A stretch of DNA of 52,470 nt from contig JABXKS010000081.1 of assembly GCA_013619125.1 (NCBI GenBank), forward strand, positions 20,189 through 72,658, read 5' to 3'. Numbering within the stretch: position 1 is the first letter of the stretch; the number at the start of each line of letters is the position of its first letter. The notes below the pieces were generated by a model that saw only the letters and a program-made list of their open reading frames with translations, was not told the origin of the DNA and did no database searches. The translations under genes and the position numbers were made by a program. This document shows, piece by piece, positions 1,814 to 9,214 of the stretch. The DNA is from Clostridiales bacterium (GTDB lineage Bacteria > Bacillota > Clostridia > Tissierellales > GPF-1).

Positions 1814-3037
1814 ATGAAAAGTAATCAGCGAGTGAATATGATCAATGGAATTTTTTTGGCACTTGCCTTGAATTTGACGAAGCCGTATAATGCGAAATTT
1901 GTATTGCGATTGGGCGGAAGCGATTATCATGTTGCCATGATTTCGTCGTTGCCAGCCATTGTTGCGGCATTGAGTTTGATTCCCATATCGATTTGGATTG
2001 AACAGGCGGAAGATCAACAAAAGCGCACGGCAATATTGATGTTTCTGCATAAATTGTTTTATTTAGGGATGGCGTTGTTGCCATTTTTCCATGGGGTCGA
2101 TCGAGCGGCGATCTTTGTATTGTGCGTCGGGTTTATGAATCTGCCTTTTGCGGCGGCGCAGTTGGGGCATCAATCCTATATCGGTGAGATCTTTTCTCCG
2201 ACGGAGCGTGGGGGTGCAATGAGCCTTCGCAATCGAGCATCGGATCTGGCGCGGCTTATGGTGATGATTGCAACGGGACAGTTGATGCTGTGGATTCCGA
2301 AGACCAACCAAGATTTTATTCAGCTCTATCAAATATTCTTTCTATTGGCATTTTTGATTGGACTCGGAGAAGTGATCAGCTTTATGCGGTTTCCTAAGAT
2401 TACCCCCGCTGAAAGGGTTGAAGGGCGCGGGTTGAAATTGGTACAAGAGGTTTTAAAGGGTCTGCCAAAGGAAAAGGGATTTTTATTGTATACGGCATGC
2501 GCCTTGGTTTTCTATTTTGGATGGCAGATGGGCTGGCCGCTGTTTAGTTTATATATGATTCAAAATTTGGGGGCGGATGAGTTTTGGCTGAGTGTGATTT
2601 CAGTATCCGCAAGTCTATTCAGTATTTTATCAGTGACCTTTTGGGCGAAGCTGGCGGATGAAAAGGGAAATCACACGGTCATTGTGATGACCACATTTTT
2701 GATGGCGTTAACGCCCATCGTATTTGCGTTTACCAAGAGTCTGCCGATGATGGCTTTACTTCAAATCATTCCAGGCACGGCGACCTCGGGGACTATTTTG
2801 GTTTTATTCAATAGCCTTTTGGAGGTGACACCGACAAAAAACCGCATGATCTATTTGGCATTTTTCACAACGGCCGTTAATATTTCAGCTAGTATTGCGC
2901 CTGTTTTCAGCGTTTGGATTAAGAGTCAAACTGCGATTGTGCCGGCCCTCCTGATTACTGGGGCTGTAAGGATGGCAGGATGTGCAGCATTGTATTTCAG
3001 AAGAAAAGTAAGTGTGGAAAGGATCCTTCCCGGGTAA
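1814..3037 (+). CDS. MFS-type transporter
   Basis: 407 aa, about 12 predicted hydrophobic helices in two halves, the usual size of a major facilitator superfamily permease. The helix 1 region is MINGIFLALALNLTKPYNAK. A loop near residue 130 (SPTERGGAMSLRNRASDLAR) resembles the helix 4-5 region of MFS drug or sugar efflux proteins, and the central loop between helices 6 and 7 is cytoplasmic and charged (about residues 195-220). The start follows GGAGAGGTGATGGG. It is a single-gene unit with its own promoter; msrB follows 21 bases later and may be cotranscribed. The substrate cannot be predicted. Confidence 0.75.
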   Translation: MKSNQRVNMINGIFLALALNLTKPYNAKFVLRLGGSDYHVAMISSLPAIVAALSLIPISIWIEQAEDQQKRTAILMFLHKLFYLGMALLPFFHGVDRAAIFVLCVGFMNLPFAAAQLGHQSYIGEIFSPTERGGAMSLRNRASDLARLMVMIATGQLMLWIPKTNQDFIQLYQIFFLLAFLIGLGEVISFMRFPKITPAERVEGRGLKLVQEVLKGLPKEKGFLLYTACALVFYFGWQMGWPLFSLYMIQNLGADEFWLSVISVSASLFSILSVTFWAKLADEKGNHTVIVMTTFLMALTPIVFAFTKSLPMMALLQIIPGTATSGTILVLFNSLLEVTPTKNRMIYLAFFTTAVNISASIAPVFSVWIKSQTAIVPALLITGAVRMAGCAALYFRRKVSVERILPG

Positions 3038-3058
3038 TAGTTTAAGGGAGGGATAAGC

Positions 3059-3514
3059 ATGAAAGATTTAAAGAAATATGAAGTGAAAAATCGAAAAGAT
3101 AGATTGAAGCACTTATCGGAGAGGCAGGTAGAAATTACGCAAAACTCCGGTACAGAGCATCCCTTTGACAATGAGTTTTGGGATGAGAAACGGGAGGGGA
3201 TCTATGTGGATTTACTCTCGGGAGAACCGCTTTTTTCTTCCTTGGACAAGTATGATGCCGGGTGTGGATGGCCAAGTTTTACCAAGCCGATTCATCGAGA
3301 GTTGATTATTGAAAAACGAGATTTTCATCATTTTATGGTGAGAACCGAGGTGCGAAGTCGATATGGCGATGCGCATTTGGGCCATGTTTTTCCCGATGGT
3401 CCTCAACCTGCGGGACTCAGATATTGTATCAACTCCACGTCCCTGCGTTTTATTCCGAAGGAAGAGATGGAAGTAAAAGGATATGGAGAGTACCTGCATC
3501 TCTTTCACACATAG
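3059..3514 (+). CDS. msrB: Peptide-methionine (R)-S-oxide reductase MsrB
   Basis: 151 aa, the typical single-domain length. It reduces the R-sulfoxide of methionine in proteins. The family blocks are all present: [20 protein letters not shown] (residues 56-74), [17 protein letters not shown] (about 99-115) and [11 protein letters not shown] (121-131). Cys123 is the catalytic cysteine (not selenocysteine here) and Cys69 in GCGWPSF is the likely resolving cysteine. The two CXXC zinc-binding pairs of many MsrB proteins are absent, as in the Bacillus-type enzymes. The start has GGGAGGGATAAGC upstream. A terminator follows immediately. Confidence 0.95.
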
Positions 3515-3515
3515 A

Positions 3516-3547
3516 AAATGCTGCGATTTCTCGCAGCATTTTTTTAT
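3516..3547. terminator. Bidirectional terminator between msrB and the convergent membrane-protein gene
   Basis: A perfect 10-bp stem (AATGCTGCGA at 3517-3526, TCGCAGCATT at 3531-3540) with a 4-base loop is followed by T7 on the + strand. It is flanked by A residues on the other side, so it can also serve the - strand gene ending at 3544. Confidence 0.85.
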
Positions 3548-4302
3548 TCATCGTCACGATGGATTTCTTTTGTGGAATAATGGATCTTGGGTTTACGTTT
3601 TTGTGGTTTTTCAGTGGTTGGTTCCTCTGGATCCGAGTCTTCTTCGGCGGGGAACTCTTGGCTGAAGGTCATGGTTTCGTCTTCTTCTCCTTGTTTCTTT
3701 TTATTTCCGGGCTGAAAAAGCAGATAAAAACCGATGATGACAAAGAGGATGGGAACGGCGCCAATCTTAAGCAGATTTTCAACTTCCGGTGTCATGATGT
3801 TCGCCGTGATAAAGAGGACAATACCAATCATCAAAATGATTATGCCTGCGCCGAGAAGGCGGTTGGATTGCAATCGCTCTTTCTCGAAAAGATAGGTCGT
3901 CATAAAACCGGCACCCAGCAGAATGAAAAACAATCCGTCAGAAGGAAGATCTGTCCATTCGGAAAGCAATTGATTGATGCCGATAATCGTTAAGACCATG
4001 CCGGGATAGATGTATCCGTTTCCTTTTTTTGTAAAATAGAGCAGGTAGAACAGTCCGCCCAAGATCAGCAGGATAAAACTCGAAGAGATGGACAGGTCCA
4101 AGATATTGTTGAGTCCCAAGCCCACAAGGAAGACGCCGATTAGAAGATTGAATGCTCCTTTGTTCGTGCCGTAGCTTGCAAGGAAAGCCCCTCCACAGGC
4201 AACTAAAAAGACCTCGGCACCAACGAAGTCATAGCGGATTAGCAATAAGGAAATCCCGAATAGGATTAAAAGCGTTGCAATAAAGACATTATTTTTATTC
4301 AT
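3544..4302 (-). CDS. Polytopic membrane protein with acidic C-terminal tail (LiaF/DUF5668-like membrane region)
   Basis: 252 aa from the ATG at 4302, chosen because AGGAGG lies just upstream on the - strand; the reading frame runs open to 4395 without another good start. Roughly residues 5-205 are eight short, closely spaced hydrophobic helices arranged as repeated pairs (ILFGISLLL, LLIGVFLVGLG, GMVLTIIGINQ, GAGIIILMIGIVLF), a pattern seen in LiaF-type and DUF5668 membrane regions. The last 45 residues are a charged cytoplasmic tail, first acidic (GEEDE, PAEEDSDPEEP), then basic (KPQKRKPKIH). It looks like an envelope protein of unknown role. A TATAAT-like -10 with TTGG before it lies at 4348-4353 on the - strand. 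Confidence 0.6.
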   Translation of the reverse strand: MNKNNVFIATLLILFGISLLLIRYDFVGAEVFLVACGGAFLASYGTNKGAFNLLIGVFLVGLGLNNILDLSISSSFILLILGGLFYLLYFTKKGNGYIYPGMVLTIIGINQLLSEWTDLPSDGLFFILLGAGFMTTYLFEKERLQSNRLLGAGIIILMIGIVLFITANIMTPEVENLLKIGAVPILFVIIGFYLLFQPGNKKKQGEEDETMTFSQEFPAEEDSDPEEPTTEKPQKRKPKIHYSTKEIHRDDE

Positions 4303-4409
4303 TTGAACCTCCTGATTTTGATTCTTATGTTCTGGGTTACTACTTTTATTATACCAAGATATGGTAGGTTCATTCGATATAATTGATAAATTCACAAAGA
4401 TTTTAAATA

Positions 4410-4475
4410 AAAATGAGCCATGGAGTCAATATCCTTAAAATAAATGTTTGAAAGGAGGACTCCATGGCTCATTTT
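4410..4475. terminator. 18-bp perfect inverted repeat, terminator of the hydrogenase operon
   Basis: AAAATGAGCCATGGAGTC at 4410-4427 is exactly complementary to 4458-4475, with a 30-base loop. On the - strand the stem is followed by a T-rich tract, so it should end the transcript of the hydrogenase operon whose last gene stops at 4479. An 18-bp perfect stem is unusually long for an intrinsic terminator. Confidence 0.75.
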
Positions 4476-4478
4476 CTT

Positions 4479-5924
4479 TTATTTATGTCGATGAAGGGAG
4501 ATTTTCTGTAAGTCAAATACGCGCAAGGCGTCTTGTTGATCTTCTTCCATGGCGAGTTTTCCATAGGTTGAGACTGCTTTTTTATCTTTCGGACCATGGT
4601 GCATAGTAACTGGTCCTTTGATGCAGCCGCCGACGCAGGCCATTCCTTCAATGAAGTTTGCTGTCTGTCGATTGAACTTCGTCAATTTTAAGGCCTTGTC
4701 GCATTCCTTGATACCATCGCAAGCCAGACTCTTGATCTCTAGTCCCAAATTCAATTGTTCTGCCGCATGTTTGACGGATTCTGTCAATCCACCGGTCGAA
4801 GCGAAAATTCGTCCATAATAGGAGGCATTGTTTAACGGGATTGGATCAAGCTCTTCCAAGGCAATTCCCTTCGCGTCGATCATGGCTGAAAGTTCTTCGA
4901 AGGTCAACACGTACTCCGTGTCTCCCAGAAGATCTGCCTGTTTCTTTTCGGATTTCTTTGCGACACAGGGTCCAATAAATACTGTAATTGCGTCTGGATC
5001 GACTTTTTTAATCAATCGAGAGGTCGCAATCATGGGAGAAACCGTTGTGGACACCAATTCTTTCAATTCTGGATACTCGTGATTGACATACTGGACAAAG
5101 GCAGGACAGCAAGAGCTTGTCATCACGGAATGAGACTGCAAATGAGTCACCAATTCCTTTGTTTCTTCTATGGAAACGAGATCTGCACCCAGGGCGACTT
5201 CGACTACATCTTTAAATCCAAGGGCCTTAATTCCGGCGATGATTTGTCCGAGTTCTGCTGAATTGTACTGGGTGGAGAAGGCGGGGGCAACCATGGCATA
5301 GACGGGTCGTTTTCCCTGTAGGCTTTCGATGATCTCTGTGATTTCTGACTTATCCTGAATGGCGCCGAAGGGACATTGATACACACAGGCACCGCATTCA
5401 ATGCATTTGTCGGGATTAATAACAGCCTTTTTATCTTCGTTGATTTCGATAGCTCCCGTTGGGCATGCCCGTCTGCAGGGTCTCATCACATCGGAGATGG
5501 CGTTGTAGGGACAAGCCTTCGCACAACGTCCGCATTCGATACACTTGCTATGATCCATAATCGCTTTTCCACCGATATACGTGATGGCGTCTACGGGACA
5601 GGCTTGCTCGCATCGATGTGCCAAGCAGCCTCGGCAGTTCTCATTGATGGTAAATCGTTGCACCGGACATTGGTCACAGGCGGAATCAAGTACCTCCACA
5701 ATCAATGGATTGGCGGTGTCGCCGCCTTCCGCCATGCGGATCCTTTCCTTTGTCACTTCGCGCTCATGATAGACACAGCAGCGGAATCTTGGCTCAGGGC
5801 CGGGGTTCAGGAGTAGGGGGATCACTTTCTTTCCTTTTTTTAAATTGTTTTCGAAGGAAAACTGCGCCACTTCACGCAGAACCTCGTACTTTACGAATTG
5901 CACTTGATTTTCAAATACTCTCAT
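4479..5924 (-). CDS. Monomeric [FeFe] hydrogenase, group B-like, with multi-cluster ferredoxin region
   Basis: 481 aa. The C-terminal two thirds are an H-cluster domain with all three signature loops: L1 TSSCCPAF (Cys272, Cys273), L2 GPCVAKK (Cys320) and L3 EGMACVGGCIKGP (Cys430, Cys434). Both the ligating cysteine and the preceding proton-relay cysteine of L1 are kept, so catalytic H2 turnover is plausible. The N-terminal 190 residues carry many cysteines in ferredoxin-like spacing: CDQC (83-86), C97/C100/C105/C109, C128/C131/C134/C138, C150/C154, C174/C177/C180/C184. This arrangement resembles the group B enzymes of anaerobic Firmicutes. It is the last gene of the four-gene operon and starts 10 bases after the phosphatase gene. 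Electron partner unknown; ferredoxin is likely. Confidence 0.88.
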   Translation of the reverse strand: MRVFENQVQFVKYEVLREVAQFSFENNLKKGKKVIPLLLNPGPEPRFRCCVYHEREVTKERIRMAEGGDTANPLIVEVLDSACDQCPVQRFTINENCRGCLAHRCEQACPVDAITYIGGKAIMDHSKCIECGRCAKACPYNAISDVMRPCRRACPTGAIEINEDKKAVINPDKCIECGACVYQCPFGAIQDKSEITEIIESLQGKRPVYAMVAPAFSTQYNSAELGQIIAGIKALGFKDVVEVALGADLVSIEETKELVTHLQSHSVMTSSCCPAFVQYVNHEYPELKELVSTTVSPMIATSRLIKKVDPDAITVFIGPCVAKKSEKKQADLLGDTEYVLTFEELSAMIDAKGIALEELDPIPLNNASYYGRIFASTGGLTESVKHAAEQLNLGLEIKSLACDGIKECDKALKLTKFNRQTANFIEGMACVGGCIKGPVTMHHGPKDKKAVSTYGKLAMEEDQQDALRVFDLQKISLHRHK

Positions 5925-5934
5925 GGGTCACCTC

Positions 5935-7089
5935 TTAAAATCTATGGACTTCGACTTCTTTACCGATTTTTTTCAATTCCTCGATCAAGGATTCTACCAC
6001 ATGCATCTTGATACTCAAGGCAGCGGGGAAGTCTGGATTCTGGTGGGCAGGGTTGATGGCCCGGCCGATAAAGAATTGAATATGGGTAGAGTCGTTGATA
6101 AGCAATTTTGCCAGACGGGTTGCACCGTCTTCGCGCGTTGGGTCATAGCCCGGCAGTTTCTGCCTAAAGGCTTCTAATCGATCGATTGTTTTTTGCAGGG
6201 TCAATACGCCTTCAGTGACCAGGTCGATCCCCCTGATCTTTGCAACGGGTGGAATCTCTGGATCCAAATAATCCAAGCATGTTTCAATATCCCGGTGGAG
6301 TTCCCGTCCAATAATATTGGCGGCTGTGCCGCCGCAGACAATCTTTTTGCCTTGCTGCTTGATAAACTTTTGAACAAGATATGAATCGTCATCTGGATCG
6401 ATGGGAGGGCCCGTAAACAGGCTGAGGGTCTCTGGCGCTCGCAGTTTAACCGTAACTGCCGTCGTATCATCACCTGGATGATAATTGTATAGTTTCGCGC
6501 AGGCATCGATCAGCCGCTGATTCAATTGATCCGCCGTCTTGACGGTTTGTCGCGATAGAAAGCTGGCGACGTGTTCCCATTCCCATCCGTGATTCAGTGT
6601 TTCACCCACGCCTGCATGGATGACGCCGTCGCTGCACAGAGTTAGGCTGTCGCCTTCTTGCAATTGAAAACTGGATCGTTGAACGATTTTGCCGTCAAAG
6701 GAGATTTCCCGTTTTTCAATCGGCAGGATTTTTCCTTTCCGGAGTACAAAGATCGGCGGATTGTCGTATTCCAGCATGACACAGGTGCCTTCTGGTTCAA
6801 TGGCGATGACACCAAAGGTGGAATAGGCGATCTTTCGTACTTGGCAGACCGGCAGAGTTTTCATTAGGGTATCCAGGGTTTCTTCAATTGATTCTCCCTT
6901 AATCAACATGGTCCCTGCGATTTTAGTGGTCATGGTGGCCAGGATGTTGGCTTTTACACCACTTCCCAGTCCGTCCGCTAAAACGATAACGGTCCGGTTG
7001 GTATCGCGAAACACCTCAACTTTGTCACCGCAGAGCTCCTCGCCGACTTTGTTTAGACTTTGGGTTGCGATATCAATGTAATAGCTCAT
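5935..7089 (-). CDS. SpoIIE/PP2C-type serine phosphatase of the hydrogenase operon
   Basis: 384 aa. Residues 1-215 form a PP2C-like phosphatase domain of the SpoIIE type, with the metal-binding aspartates in LADGLGSG (Asp39), CSDGV (Asp154) and HPGDDTT (Asp207/208). Residues 220-384 are a conserved but unassigned extension, so the protein is longer than a bare PP2C. No membrane segment is visible, so it is cytoplasmic. Its ATG overlaps the stop of the sensory hydrogenase gene by one base (TAATG), which indicates tight coupling. Phosphatase-linked group C hydrogenases are known as a genomic class, and the inferred role is to pass a hydrogen or redox signal to a phosphorylated protein. The target is unknown. 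Confidence 0.85.
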   Translation of the reverse strand: MSYYIDIATQSLNKVGEELCGDKVEVFRDTNRTVIVLADGLGSGVKANILATMTTKIAGTMLIKGESIEETLDTLMKTLPVCQVRKIAYSTFGVIAIEPEGTCVMLEYDNPPIFVLRKGKILPIEKREISFDGKIVQRSSFQLQEGDSLTLCSDGVIHAGVGETLNHGWEWEHVASFLSRQTVKTADQLNQRLIDACAKLYNYHPGDDTTAVTVKLRAPETLSLFTGPPIDPDDDSYLVQKFIKQQGKKIVCGGTAANIIGRELHRDIETCLDYLDPEIPPVAKIRGIDLVTEGVLTLQKTIDRLEAFRQKLPGYDPTREDGATRLAKLLINDSTHIQFFIGRAINPAHQNPDFPAALSIKMHVVESLIEELKKIGKEVEVHRF

Positions 7090-8816
7090 TAAAAATCTCC
7101 TTCGTCGGCCAAAACGATGTCTTTGAGATGGTTGAGATTGATTTTGGTGTCTGCGGTGGTTTCGCCAAGAAGGCTTGCGATTTCCTGAGCGACACGCATT
7201 TGTTTTTCAATAACGTTTTGACAGGTCATGATTGTTTCGCGTTTGACGCGCATCAATTCAACCTGGTTTTTTTCTGCCTGAGTGACATCGGCCAAGATGC
7301 CTAGAATCAGATTATCTTTTTCCAAGAATACGATGTTGACGATAAAGGTCTTATGAATCGATGGGAACGGAATCCGTTGCCCAAGGATATTTTCTTTGGT
7401 GTCCCGTACTTGTTGAAAGAGATCTTCATCTAAAAATGCTGCGATGGGGAAGTCCTTTACAGGGCTGCTTTCGGGATTAAAGGCTTGATCAAAGGCTGGA
7501 TTGACATCTCGGATCATCAAGTCGTGATCCAGAATGACAATGCTGTTTGGGGTTGAATCAAAGATCACCGATTGCATACTTTCCGCTTTTTGACGGAGAT
7601 ATGGCATGCACATCTGCCCATCGGAAATGCCCATAACAACTGCTTTTGCTTTTTCTCGGCAGGTATCGTACCCGCAAGCGCCGCAATTTAACTGATCCTG
7701 CTTGGTGTACTTGCCCATGCGGGTCAAAGCACTCTGGATATCCGCTTCTGTCGCAATATCGTAGCAGAGATTTTTTGCCTCAAAGGTTTTTGAAAGATCT
7801 AGATGATCGAAATCGAACTGATTCTTCTTTCTTGCCTCCTTGAGGGTCTTCTTTGTATCTACATATTGATGGAGACGCATTTCTCGCTCAAAATGGCAGG
7901 TGCCATCAGCGGGCATTCCGGGCCCGTTGATGCAGGAGCCGCTGCAGATGTTGATTTCGATGCAATATCGATCTAGGGCGCCTTTTCTCATGGCATCGAG
8001 AATATCCTTGCACTCCTCAATTCCATCAACGCGAACATATTTATATTGATGATTGATGCGTGTTCGAAAATCACTTTTGAATAAACTGCCTCCAAGGGGA
8101 TAGGCGCAGCCGCGCTTTGTTGAGACATGATCAAAAGGAGTGGGTGTTAGCTGAGACAAGGTCACTTTTTCTGAAGCAAACCAATCCCTTAGCTCTTCAA
8201 AGGTGATCACGGCATCGATAACTCCGCGATGTTGAAAGCCTTCGGCCTCCACTTTTTTTGCCATGCAGGGGCCGATAAAGACCACATAGGCGTTTTCGAA
8301 GCGCTCCTTCAATAATTTTCCATGCGCAATCATGGGAGAAACTACCGGCAACATAAACTTAATGGATTCCGGATAGTATTGCTCCACCAAATAGTTTGCG
8401 GAAGGACAGCTGGTTGTAATCAGATTTTTTTTATCGCCAACCTCAATAAAGGCTTCGTAGGCTTGAGAAACGACCTCGGCGCCAATCGCTGTTTCCTCGA
8501 CATGAGTAAAGCCCAGATATTTCAGAGCGGTTACAATCTGACTTGGATCATCCATGGGAAATGCGGATGCAAAGGAGGGTGCGATGGAAACAATCACACG
8601 GCGATCCGATCGGATTGCCAACTTGACCTTGTCTAGGTCTTGAGCAATTTTCAGGGCGCCCTGGGGACATACCACTTGGCATCTTCCGCACTTGATGCAA
8701 AGTTCATTGATAATCTCGCGGCGATCTCCCAGAAAGGCAATGGCTTTGGTTGGGCAGGTGCGCAAGCACTTATAGCATTCATCGCATTTTTCTTTGTCGA
8801 AATCGATGAAAGACAT
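7089..8816 (-). CDS. Sensory-type (group C) [FeFe] hydrogenase with PAS domain (HydS-like)
   Basis: 575 aa. Order of domains: two [4Fe-4S] ferredoxin motifs (Cys11/14/17/21 and Cys40/43/46/50), an H-cluster domain (about 70-310), a further Fe-S motif NCGACGYDTC (Cys378, 381, 386, with Cys403), a PAS domain (about 415-515), and a helical C-terminal segment. H-cluster ligands are present: Cys137 in L1, Cys184 in GPCMAKK, Cys291 and Cys295 in NICSGSCINGPG. L1 reads TTSCPS, so the proton-relay cysteine of catalytic enzymes is replaced by Ser136. Together with the PAS domain this points to a low-turnover H2/redox sensor. It is flanked by a [2Fe-2S] protein gene upstream and a phosphatase gene downstream in one operon. 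Confidence 0.88.
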   Translation of the reverse strand: MSFIDFDKEKCDECYKCLRTCPTKAIAFLGDRREIINELCIKCGRCQVVCPQGALKIAQDLDKVKLAIRSDRRVIVSIAPSFASAFPMDDPSQIVTALKYLGFTHVEETAIGAEVVSQAYEAFIEVGDKKNLITTSCPSANYLVEQYYPESIKFMLPVVSPMIAHGKLLKERFENAYVVFIGPCMAKKVEAEGFQHRGVIDAVITFEELRDWFASEKVTLSQLTPTPFDHVSTKRGCAYPLGGSLFKSDFRTRINHQYKYVRVDGIEECKDILDAMRKGALDRYCIEINICSGSCINGPGMPADGTCHFEREMRLHQYVDTKKTLKEARKKNQFDFDHLDLSKTFEAKNLCYDIATEADIQSALTRMGKYTKQDQLNCGACGYDTCREKAKAVVMGISDGQMCMPYLRQKAESMQSVIFDSTPNSIVILDHDLMIRDVNPAFDQAFNPESSPVKDFPIAAFLDEDLFQQVRDTKENILGQRIPFPSIHKTFIVNIVFLEKDNLILGILADVTQAEKNQVELMRVKRETIMTCQNVIEKQMRVAQEIASLLGETTADTKINLNHLKDIVLADEGDF

Positions 8817-9059
8817 TTAGAGTCTTCCTTTGATTGAGGCGGCAAAGAATTCGTCAACTGTCTCTGGCGACACCGAATAGACCGGCTCATCGTCAATCTT
8901 TACTGATACAGCTTGGGCGCATTGACCCAGACAGAAAGAAGACTTCAGTAGAACTTGATCCTCCAAAGCGTCCTCTGCAATTTTTCCCTTCAGCTTCTGA
9001 ATTACCTCATAAGATCCTTTTAAATGGCAAGCACTGCCGATACAAACTTGAACAACCAT
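8817..9059 (-). CDS. Small [2Fe-2S] thioredoxin-like ferredoxin (NuoE/HydC-like)
   Basis: 80 aa from the ATG at 9059, preferred over an upstream in-frame ATG at 9110 because GGGAGG sits eight bases before it. Cys6 and Cys11 (CIGSAC) with Cys43 and Cys47 (CLGQC) have the spacing of the thioredoxin-like [2Fe-2S] ferredoxins that form the C-terminal part of NuoE and the small subunits of electron-bifurcating hydrogenases. It is the first gene of the operon, and its stop codon abuts the start of the sensory hydrogenase. It probably exchanges electrons with one or both hydrogenases. Confidence 0.85.
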   Translation of the reverse strand: MVVQVCIGSACHLKGSYEVIQKLKGKIAEDALEDQVLLKSSFCLGQCAQAVSVKIDDEPVYSVSPETVDEFFAASIKGRL

Positions 9060-9092: not shown

Positions 9093-9121
9093 ATAATATA
9101 TCATTGACAAAAAAATATCAA
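9093..9121 (-). promoter_or_regulatory. Promoter of the hydrogenase/phosphatase operon
   Basis: On the - strand TTGATA (9121-9116) and TATTAT (9098-9093) are exactly 17 bp apart, 34 bases before the first start codon. It is a good sigma-A-type match inside an AT-rich divergent intergenic region. Confidence 0.7.
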
Positions 9122-9214
9122 TAGTCTTTTTAATCTTATGTTAAAAATATAACAATAAGCGTTTTCCTTTCCGATTTTGATGCGTTAACTTTTTATGAAG
9201 AGACGCAAAAACTA

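Follow-up and report, generated by a model that had tools for sequence, protein, structure and literature searches.

An hfsABCD-type operon of a sensory hydrogenase and a phosphatase in a Clostridiales bacterium, and a TnpB/Cas12f-like protein with a predicted RNA beside the same module in one clade of relatives

The window analysed here is a stretch of 52,470 nucleotides from a Clostridiales bacterium, and all coordinates given without a locus number refer to the whole of it. On its minus strand, from 9059 down to 4479, lie four closely packed genes in the order [2Fe-2S] protein, group C [FeFe] hydrogenase, phosphatase and group B1 hydrogenase, which form an operon of the hfsABCD type, HydDB class C3, a kind already published. 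The hfsA-like first gene (8817..9059) encodes a small [2Fe-2S] protein of 80 amino acids, recognised by PF01257 and by its four-cysteine spacing, and is followed by the hfsB/hydS-like gene of the group C [FeFe] hydrogenase, the sensor (7089..8816; 575 amino acids; PF02906, PF04060 and weak PAS_4 and PAS_8 matches). The hfsC-like third gene (5935..7089) encodes a SpoIIE/PP2C phosphatase of 384 amino acids, identified by PF07228, its motifs and a structure model, and the last, hfsD-like gene (4479..5924) a monomeric group B1 [FeFe] hydrogenase of 481 amino acids (TIGR04105). Base 7089 serves both the stop codon of the sensor and the ATG of the phosphatase, so the one-base overlap between these genes is real; the remaining junctions measure 0 bases ([2Fe-2S] protein/sensor) and 10 bases (phosphatase/group B1 hydrogenase). 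An earlier reading made from the letters alone (hereafter the sequence-only reading) had described a four-gene operon of this content, with the one-base overlap and with a sensory hydrogenase, a phosphatase and a group B hydrogenase as products; open reading frames and family matches bear out all of this and place the second hydrogenase in group B1.

Upstream of the first gene, on the same strand, lie a promoter-like TTGATA-17-TATTAT (9093..9121; 10/12 in the promoter scan) and a Rex-box-like site, TTGTTATATTTTTAACAT (9138..9155), with two mismatches to TTGTTAANNNNTTAACAA, taken here as the Rex-box consensus. Promoter-like sites number nine in the region, near the expectation from shuffled sequence (mean 7.4, standard deviation 2.9). 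Beyond the last gene, at about 4408..4473, a 16-base inverted repeat, perfect over its length, encloses a 30-base loop and is followed by T-rich sequence; this terminator-like element of the minus strand was read by eye and does not appear in the automatic terminator scan, which permits loops of 3-8 bases only. Across the window's genome PF02906 matches at five places, two of which are the hydrogenases of the operon.

The sensor matches PF02906 at 186.7 bits and PF04060 with E 5.5e-9 at residues 375-405, while its PAS matches are weak (PAS_4, E 0.002, 18.8 bits; PAS_8, E 0.0029, 17.9 bits), both under the Pfam cut-offs. In an alignment of 81 sensors longer than 500 amino acids and scoring above 300 bits, the H-cluster ligands of motifs L1, L2 and L3, in the window protein Cys 137, 184, 291 and 295, are kept in 81/81, as is a C-terminal four-cysteine iron-sulfur (FeS) motif, Cx2Cx4Cx(14-18)C, given in the literature as Cx2Cx4Cx16C. 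The window thus has the group C3 traits of H-cluster cysteines, C-terminal four-cysteine motif and adjoining Ser/Thr phosphatase gene. Where group A enzymes have their proton-transfer cysteine, the sensors carry Cys (50), Ala (12), Ser (11), Phe (6), Asn (1) or Tyr (1), the window protein having Ser136. A position beside the third ligand motif that is Met in the aligned group A and B1 enzymes is Asn in 51/81 and Ser in 23/81 sensors, and Asn289 in the window; we infer that it is the equivalent of Ser267 of Thermotoga maritima HydS, a residue described as tuning the H-cluster potential (PMC10055695). C-terminal to the PAS-like region comes the stretch MRVAQEIASLLGETTAETK, in which 15 of 19 positions are at least 95% conserved among the 81 sensors, and because of this conservation the stretch, a putative C-terminal helix, appears to be the best candidate for contact with the phosphatase.

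The phosphatase scores 73.8 bits against PF07228 (SpoIIE), where the cut-off is 25. The motifs DG[ML]G[SA]G and SDG occur in 80/80 related loci and GDD[ST]T in 63/80, and the metal-binding aspartates D39, D154, D207 and D208 are invariant in the 21 aligned phosphatases. Its structure model has a predicted local distance difference test score (pLDDT) of 87, and over residues 1-219, the range of the fit, the SpoIIE phosphatase domain 5ucg_A is matched with Z 23.2. Residues 217-384 (5938..6441, minus strand), delimited by alignments and by the model, form an additional C-terminal alpha/beta domain that has no match in Pfam, is modelled with a pLDDT of 92 and contains 16 invariant columns in 73 sequences. 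The motifs CGGT (71/80), N[PL]AHQN (70/80) and TEG (79/80) occur in it. Searches of its fold against the PDB gave weak and mixed matches (best Foldseek E 1.8e-3; best VIA-align match, to a complex I subunit, Z 9.4, 3.6 Å over 121 residues), which may reflect a common alpha/beta arrangement, and no family is claimed.

The first gene matches PF01257 with E 1.8e-10 over profile positions 67-141 of 145 only; judged from this match, its product corresponds to the C-terminal lobe of the NuoE/HydC thioredoxin-like ferredoxin fold, and its four-cysteine spacing is found in 73 of 74 relatives. The group B1 gene scores 569.6 bits against TIGR04105 (cut-off 450), and the TS(S)CCP motif is present in all 35 full-length group B1 relatives. 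In L053 (9192-10649) the group B1 hydrogenase lies in two frames and may be broken or reflect a sequencing error.

For the comparison of loci the phosphatase was used as the query, and the 80 named loci are the best 80 of at least 577 relatives (at least 590 matched stretches, GTDB genomes). A phosphatase match with E <= 1e-10 occurs in 88 of 291 genomes of the class; two of the 88, G009 and G195, match residues 3-216 only, inside frames of 819 and 765 amino acids that look like SpoIIE itself. In 80/80 named loci the gene immediately upstream of the phosphatase is the sensor, which is preceded by the [2Fe-2S] gene in 73/80; among the seven others, L075 and L079 stop at a contig end and L088 has such a gene on the other strand. 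A group B1 gene adjoins in 35/80, the examined flanks of 18/80 contain the NADH-binding subunit of a bifurcating hydrogenase, and the same flanks hold adhE in six loci and a TnpB-like gene, described below, in seven. The core module is thus the sensor and the phosphatase, in most loci together with the [2Fe-2S] protein, and the hydrogenase slot is variable: with 80/80 against 35/80, group B1 is one partner of several. The sequence-only reading had the second hydrogenase act on H2; this can be sharpened to production of H2 from reduced ferredoxin, which reoxidises the ferredoxin, as described for group B enzymes (PMC12578642), and given to a frequent neighbour that lies outside the core. Conservation of the gene order beyond close relatives, which that reading had proposed as a check, was found across Clostridia, and one Paenibacillus and one Izimaplasma locus likewise have the sensor and the phosphatase. 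Two Clostridium species have a second HydS-like gene shortly before the operon (L047, 4203-5939; L050, 4207-5937).

The window's operon is without adhE. In L037 and L038, which belong to the window's own clade of nine rows (SH-like approximate likelihood ratio test support 99), adhE (3486-6068 and 3470-6055) precedes the [2Fe-2S] gene with gaps of 9 and 3 bases, and it stands in the same place in L082 (3430-6036) and L110 (3424-6048), with gaps of 14 and 12 bases; the gap is 182 bases in L091, and in L100 the called frames overlap. AdhE was confirmed with Pfam in L037, L082, L134, L135 and L136, as was PFL in L134, and other adhE genes were recognised by similarity to those.

A Rex-box-like site with at most two mismatches lies upstream of the [2Fe-2S] gene in 22 of 71 usable loci, which are related, so that the sites are not independent, and in a few of which the site lies 250-300 bases upstream; 0.9 such sites are expected by first-order resampling and 1.05 in random windows. 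As a control, 29 of 629 other genes of the same loci have a site, and this control is conservative, because adhE, hydrogenase and even HydS frames are among the 29. A Rex-type gene (PF06971 and PF02629) is present in the examined flanks of L072 (871-1536), L106 (985-1623) and L085 (13894-14577), and in Clostridium thermocellum Rex is described as binding upstream of other hydrogenase genes (PMC8457756).

The sequence-only reading was right to treat phosphatase-linked group C hydrogenases as a recognised class: in its accessible text HydDB has a group C3, "phosphatase-linked", in which, as in the window, a group C hydrogenase stands beside a Ser/Thr phosphatase, and gives its role as undetermined (PMC5037454). 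C3 is a class description, however, whereas the window presents a four-gene order, and this order is that of hfsABCD of Thermoanaerobacterium, where hfsA comes first and is followed by hfsB for a PAS-containing [FeFe] hydrogenase, the serine-phosphatase-like hfsC and hfsD for a ferredoxin-linked hydrogenase, as described in the available parts of two papers (PMC5707799, PMC11837493). The likeness to hfsABCD of T. saccharolyticum (GQ354412) is one of gene order and families. HfsA is said in the 2025 paper to align poorly with known proteins (PMC11837493), whereas the window's first gene matches the NuoE-like C-terminal lobe, and unlike hfsABCD some relatives of the window have adhE directly before the operon. 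In the hydS-hydA2 cluster of Ruminococcus albus, too, a sensory hydrogenase, a phosphatase and a ferredoxin hydrogenase are clustered, but that cluster adds an alcohol/aldehyde dehydrogenase and its hydrogenase belongs to group A1 (PMC6776011), whereas the window has group B1 and no adhE in the operon.

Such operons are less open than the sequence-only reading supposed, since single-gene deletions of hfsABCD have been published (PMC5707799); a phosphoprotein target was not found. In T. saccharolyticum, according to the accessible text, deletion of hfsA or hfsB raised the adhE transcript two- to threefold and the ethanol yield with it, deletion of hfsC or hfsD raised neither, and the hfsB deletion raised total hydrogenase activity (PMC5707799). 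The R. albus cluster is reported to be 111-fold down in co-culture with Wolinella, which was attributed to H2 sensing (PMC6776011).

Cumulatively, we propose that operons of this type are probably used by fermenting bacteria to sense hydrogen and to adjust the disposal of electrons, and we regard an hfsABCD-type H2/redox relay that runs through the phosphatase to electron disposal, with some reserve, as a fairly likely account and as the best explanation of the operon as a whole. The group C hydrogenase would report H2 or the redox state of ferredoxin, with the [2Fe-2S] protein probably acting as its electron partner, and the signal would travel by way of the C-terminal FeS cluster, the PAS-like region and the conserved C-terminal helix to the adjoining phosphatase, which would then dephosphorylate a Ser/Thr phosphoprotein. 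The output would set the balance between H2 formation from ferredoxin by the group B1 hydrogenase and NADH-consuming ethanol formation by AdhE, and Rex would probably add control by NADH/NAD+ over the whole operon. In outline this retains the model of the sequence-only reading, in which the first hydrogenase senses H2 and the phosphatase passes on the signal.

Several observations weigh against such a relay. When T. thermosaccharolyticum lacks the whole operon but has hydAB, hfsD by itself is reported to give the high-ethanol phenotype (PMC11837493), which therefore does not depend on the phosphatase relay. Expression of rex in T. saccharolyticum is described as going up, not down, with ethanol yield (PMC5707799). 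Among the 80 loci, 25 are without any scored partner, some through contig ends, and the PAS matches of the sensor stay under Pfam's cut-offs. No phosphoprotein, kinase or H2-dependent phosphatase activity is given in the literature on these systems, as far as its accessible text goes, and we found no phosphoprotein target in the window's genome, which was checked for STAS and HATPase_c_2 only, with Ser/Thr kinases not searched. That check gave a single stand-alone STAS protein, whose gene has an RsbW-like gene and one for a sigma factor as neighbours, in the arrangement of spoIIA.

The genetics would also suit a direct action of the [2Fe-2S] protein and HydS on the second hydrogenase, by electron transfer or in a complex, which would throttle H2 production and leave the phosphatase in a side role: hfsD is the decisive gene and suffices without hfsA, hfsB and hfsC (PMC11837493), and total hydrogenase activity rose when hfsB was lost (PMC5707799). 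Yet the constant partner of the sensor is the phosphatase (80/80) and not the group B1 enzyme (35/80), a comparison that comes from loci found by their phosphatase and is silent on sensors without one, and we consider direct action unlikely. It is also conceivable, though quite improbable, that HydS is a slow catalytic hydrogenase and that the PAS/phosphatase part responds to the general redox state and not to H2, given that T. maritima HydS is reported both to oxidise and to produce H2 (PMC10055695). This sits poorly with the loss of the group A proton-transfer cysteine in 31 of 81 sensors, the window's included, and with the Asn or Ser that most of them carry at the Met position of groups A and B1; Greening et al., moreover, take the regulation in R. 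albus as following mainly H2 levels (PMC6776011).

We see a similarly slim chance that the phosphatase works as part of a partner switch, in which it would dephosphorylate a STAS anti-anti-sigma factor or the substrate of an RsbW-like kinase. Its SpoIIE-type catalytic domain would fit this role, and the window's genome holds, besides the one STAS/RsbW-like pair followed by a sigma factor, further HATPase_c_2 matches. Further, a histidine-kinase-like ATPase frame of 185-196 amino acids lies near the operon, beside hydrogenase genes, in L095 (1286-1843), L101 (1382-1972) and L112 (1333-1890); PF02518 was confirmed in both frames tested, and the three are possible kinase partners. The STAS pair, however, is arranged as in the sporulation operon spoIIA, and among recurrent neighbours, read by eye and not profile-scanned, no STAS protein was recognised.

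The operon is a candidate H2 sensor. Hydrogen pressure influences whether fermenters form H2 and acetate or ethanol and lactate, a choice that bears on H2 in the gut, methane from the rumen and strains for biofuel. The comparison supplies a conserved core, candidate elements (the sensor helix, the extra domain of the phosphatase and the Rex-box-like site) and relatives with adhE in the same string of genes; the core module, the link to Rex and the C-terminal elements are additions to the published picture, and the surprising part, a TnpB-like protein with an RNA in one clade, lies outside the window.

Seventeen loci carry, on the same strand, a TnpB/Cas12f-like protein of 464-539 amino acids, seven of them among the 80 (L063, L071, L074, L088, L094, L113 and L114) and ten more among L129-L140, where L129 equals L113 and L130 equals L074. 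The gene follows the phosphatase directly in 14 of the 17, with gaps of -14 to 109 bases, and in L134-L136 it stands after adhE (gaps 2825-3257). Five of the proteins were scanned with PF07282 (E 7e-6 to 4e-3, two reaching the cut-off) and three with NF040570 (E 5.4e-12 to 1.2e-8, under its 100-bit cut-off); the same three also matched Cas12f models, and a profile of seven proteins matched solved Cas12f structures with E 1.3e-11. The kinship rests mainly on the C-terminal part. The Asp of RuvC-I is replaced in 17/17 and the Glu of RuvC-II is kept in 4/17, and judged by the RuvC-I loss in all 17 the protein is predicted to be inactive as a nuclease. Alignment with ordinary TnpBs showed that the third acidic position is D or E in 16/17, so that a loss of this residue in all of them was ruled out.

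In a tree of 91 phosphatases the trait appears as a single change (17 rows, branch support 76). L113 is recorded as Calditrichales bacterium MX18-03, yet its phosphatase falls among Clostridia in this tree, and the name may be wrong. The 291 genomes of the class gave 13 protein matches with E <= 1e-15. Twelve of these (E < 1e-125) are complete or almost complete, and all 12 lie on the same contig as, and within 5 kb of, the phosphatase gene; the thirteenth (G134, L128) was rejected as an ordinary TnpB. Among 398 genomes of the phylum there was no full-length match, and 18 weaker places in 10 genomes (best E 3.7e-21) cover nearly always the C-terminal part; two of these, L172 and L177, proved to be ordinary TnpB-like frames with the RuvC-I aspartate kept.

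A conserved RNA-like sequence follows all 17 genes, starting between just before the stop codon and about 110 bases beyond it. It contains two hairpins, GGUGC...GCACC and CUUAC AGA GUAAG, as well as a pairing over a longer range (GCUGC/GCAGC), ends in GCUAUCU in 16/17 (L094 differs) and is mostly followed by what was judged by eye to be a terminator-like hairpin. In an alignment of 16 rows (15 distinct; L063 omitted for an insertion, L129 and L135 shortened), 88.5% of the cells form a pair, and both partners have changed in 10 of the 19 pairs. The covariation score of 0.300 compares with 0.120 or less when the structure is slid along the alignment. These values are favoured by the fact that the structure was drawn from the same sequences. 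Shuffles equalled the RNA in further pair types in 35/500 cases and in the other measures in at most 1/500. When 81 sources including the window were searched with a covariance model made from these sequences, the seven protein-carrying loci and nothing else fell below E 0.04; five further weak matches (E 0.041 to 0.82) were not counted. In the 291 genomes, 12 matches with E <= 4.4e-13 came from the same 12 that have the protein, and the next stood at 1.2e-5. All 12 and six of the seven matched RNAs are in the model, with only L063 (E 4.3e-6) independent, so the result speaks for specificity and not for sensitivity. In 21 of the 33 genomes with a match at E <= 0.01 the matches are weak only (E >= 1.2e-5) and were not taken as real; the one that was inspected, L153, has only glycolysis genes around it. 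Rfam searches of eight loci gave only tRNAs at gathering scores, and near the RNA of L134 sub-threshold matches only.

In position and pairing the RNA resembles an omegaRNA. Matches of 8 to 11 bases to its 3' tail in the 17 loci, sought as guide matches, stayed within the range of shuffled tails (ten-base, 7 against a mean of 5.35 and a maximum of 16; eight-base, 135 against 92.65 and 151). In genome G110, 29 places matched with at most two mismatches against 14 for the reversed control, 27 of them inexact, and the sole exact 15-base match outside the locus was discarded as a target, since the 3' end of the RNA itself is repeated there. This second copy lies at a contig end (C520, 4301-4330; L207) beside a different neighbour, perhaps through strain variation in the assembly. 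In G082 only the RNA itself matched.

Systems of comparable make-up are known as TldR, in which, according to the accessible text, a TnpB-like protein whose RuvC is inactivated stands with non-transposon genes and has a structured RNA immediately after it (PMC13418256), as in the clade described here; TldR is linked to flagellin and csrA (PMC13418256), whereas the clade's pair is linked to an H2-sensor operon and the searches gave no guide target for it. Searches of the open part of PMC gave no title joining TnpB with hydrogenase sensing; both words occur in some of the papers, for example PMC11728337, PMC13192273, PMC12607003 and PMC11742911. We tentatively suggest, as a possibility somewhat short of an even chance, that the sensor/phosphatase module of this clade gained, as an output, a TnpB/Cas12f-like protein that is domesticated and nuclease-dead, together with that protein's own structured RNA, so that H2/redox state would control fermentation genes (adhE, hydrogenases) through an RNA-protein regulator. 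The window represents the form without this protein/RNA pair, and its genome has no match to the TnpB-like protein. If functional, the pair would tie RNA-dependent regulation to central anaerobic metabolism.

At the near end of the window, positions 33-1714 encode a Sigma-70 region 2 protein and, after it, an anti-sigma factor of the RsgI-like kind (PF12791, PF23750).

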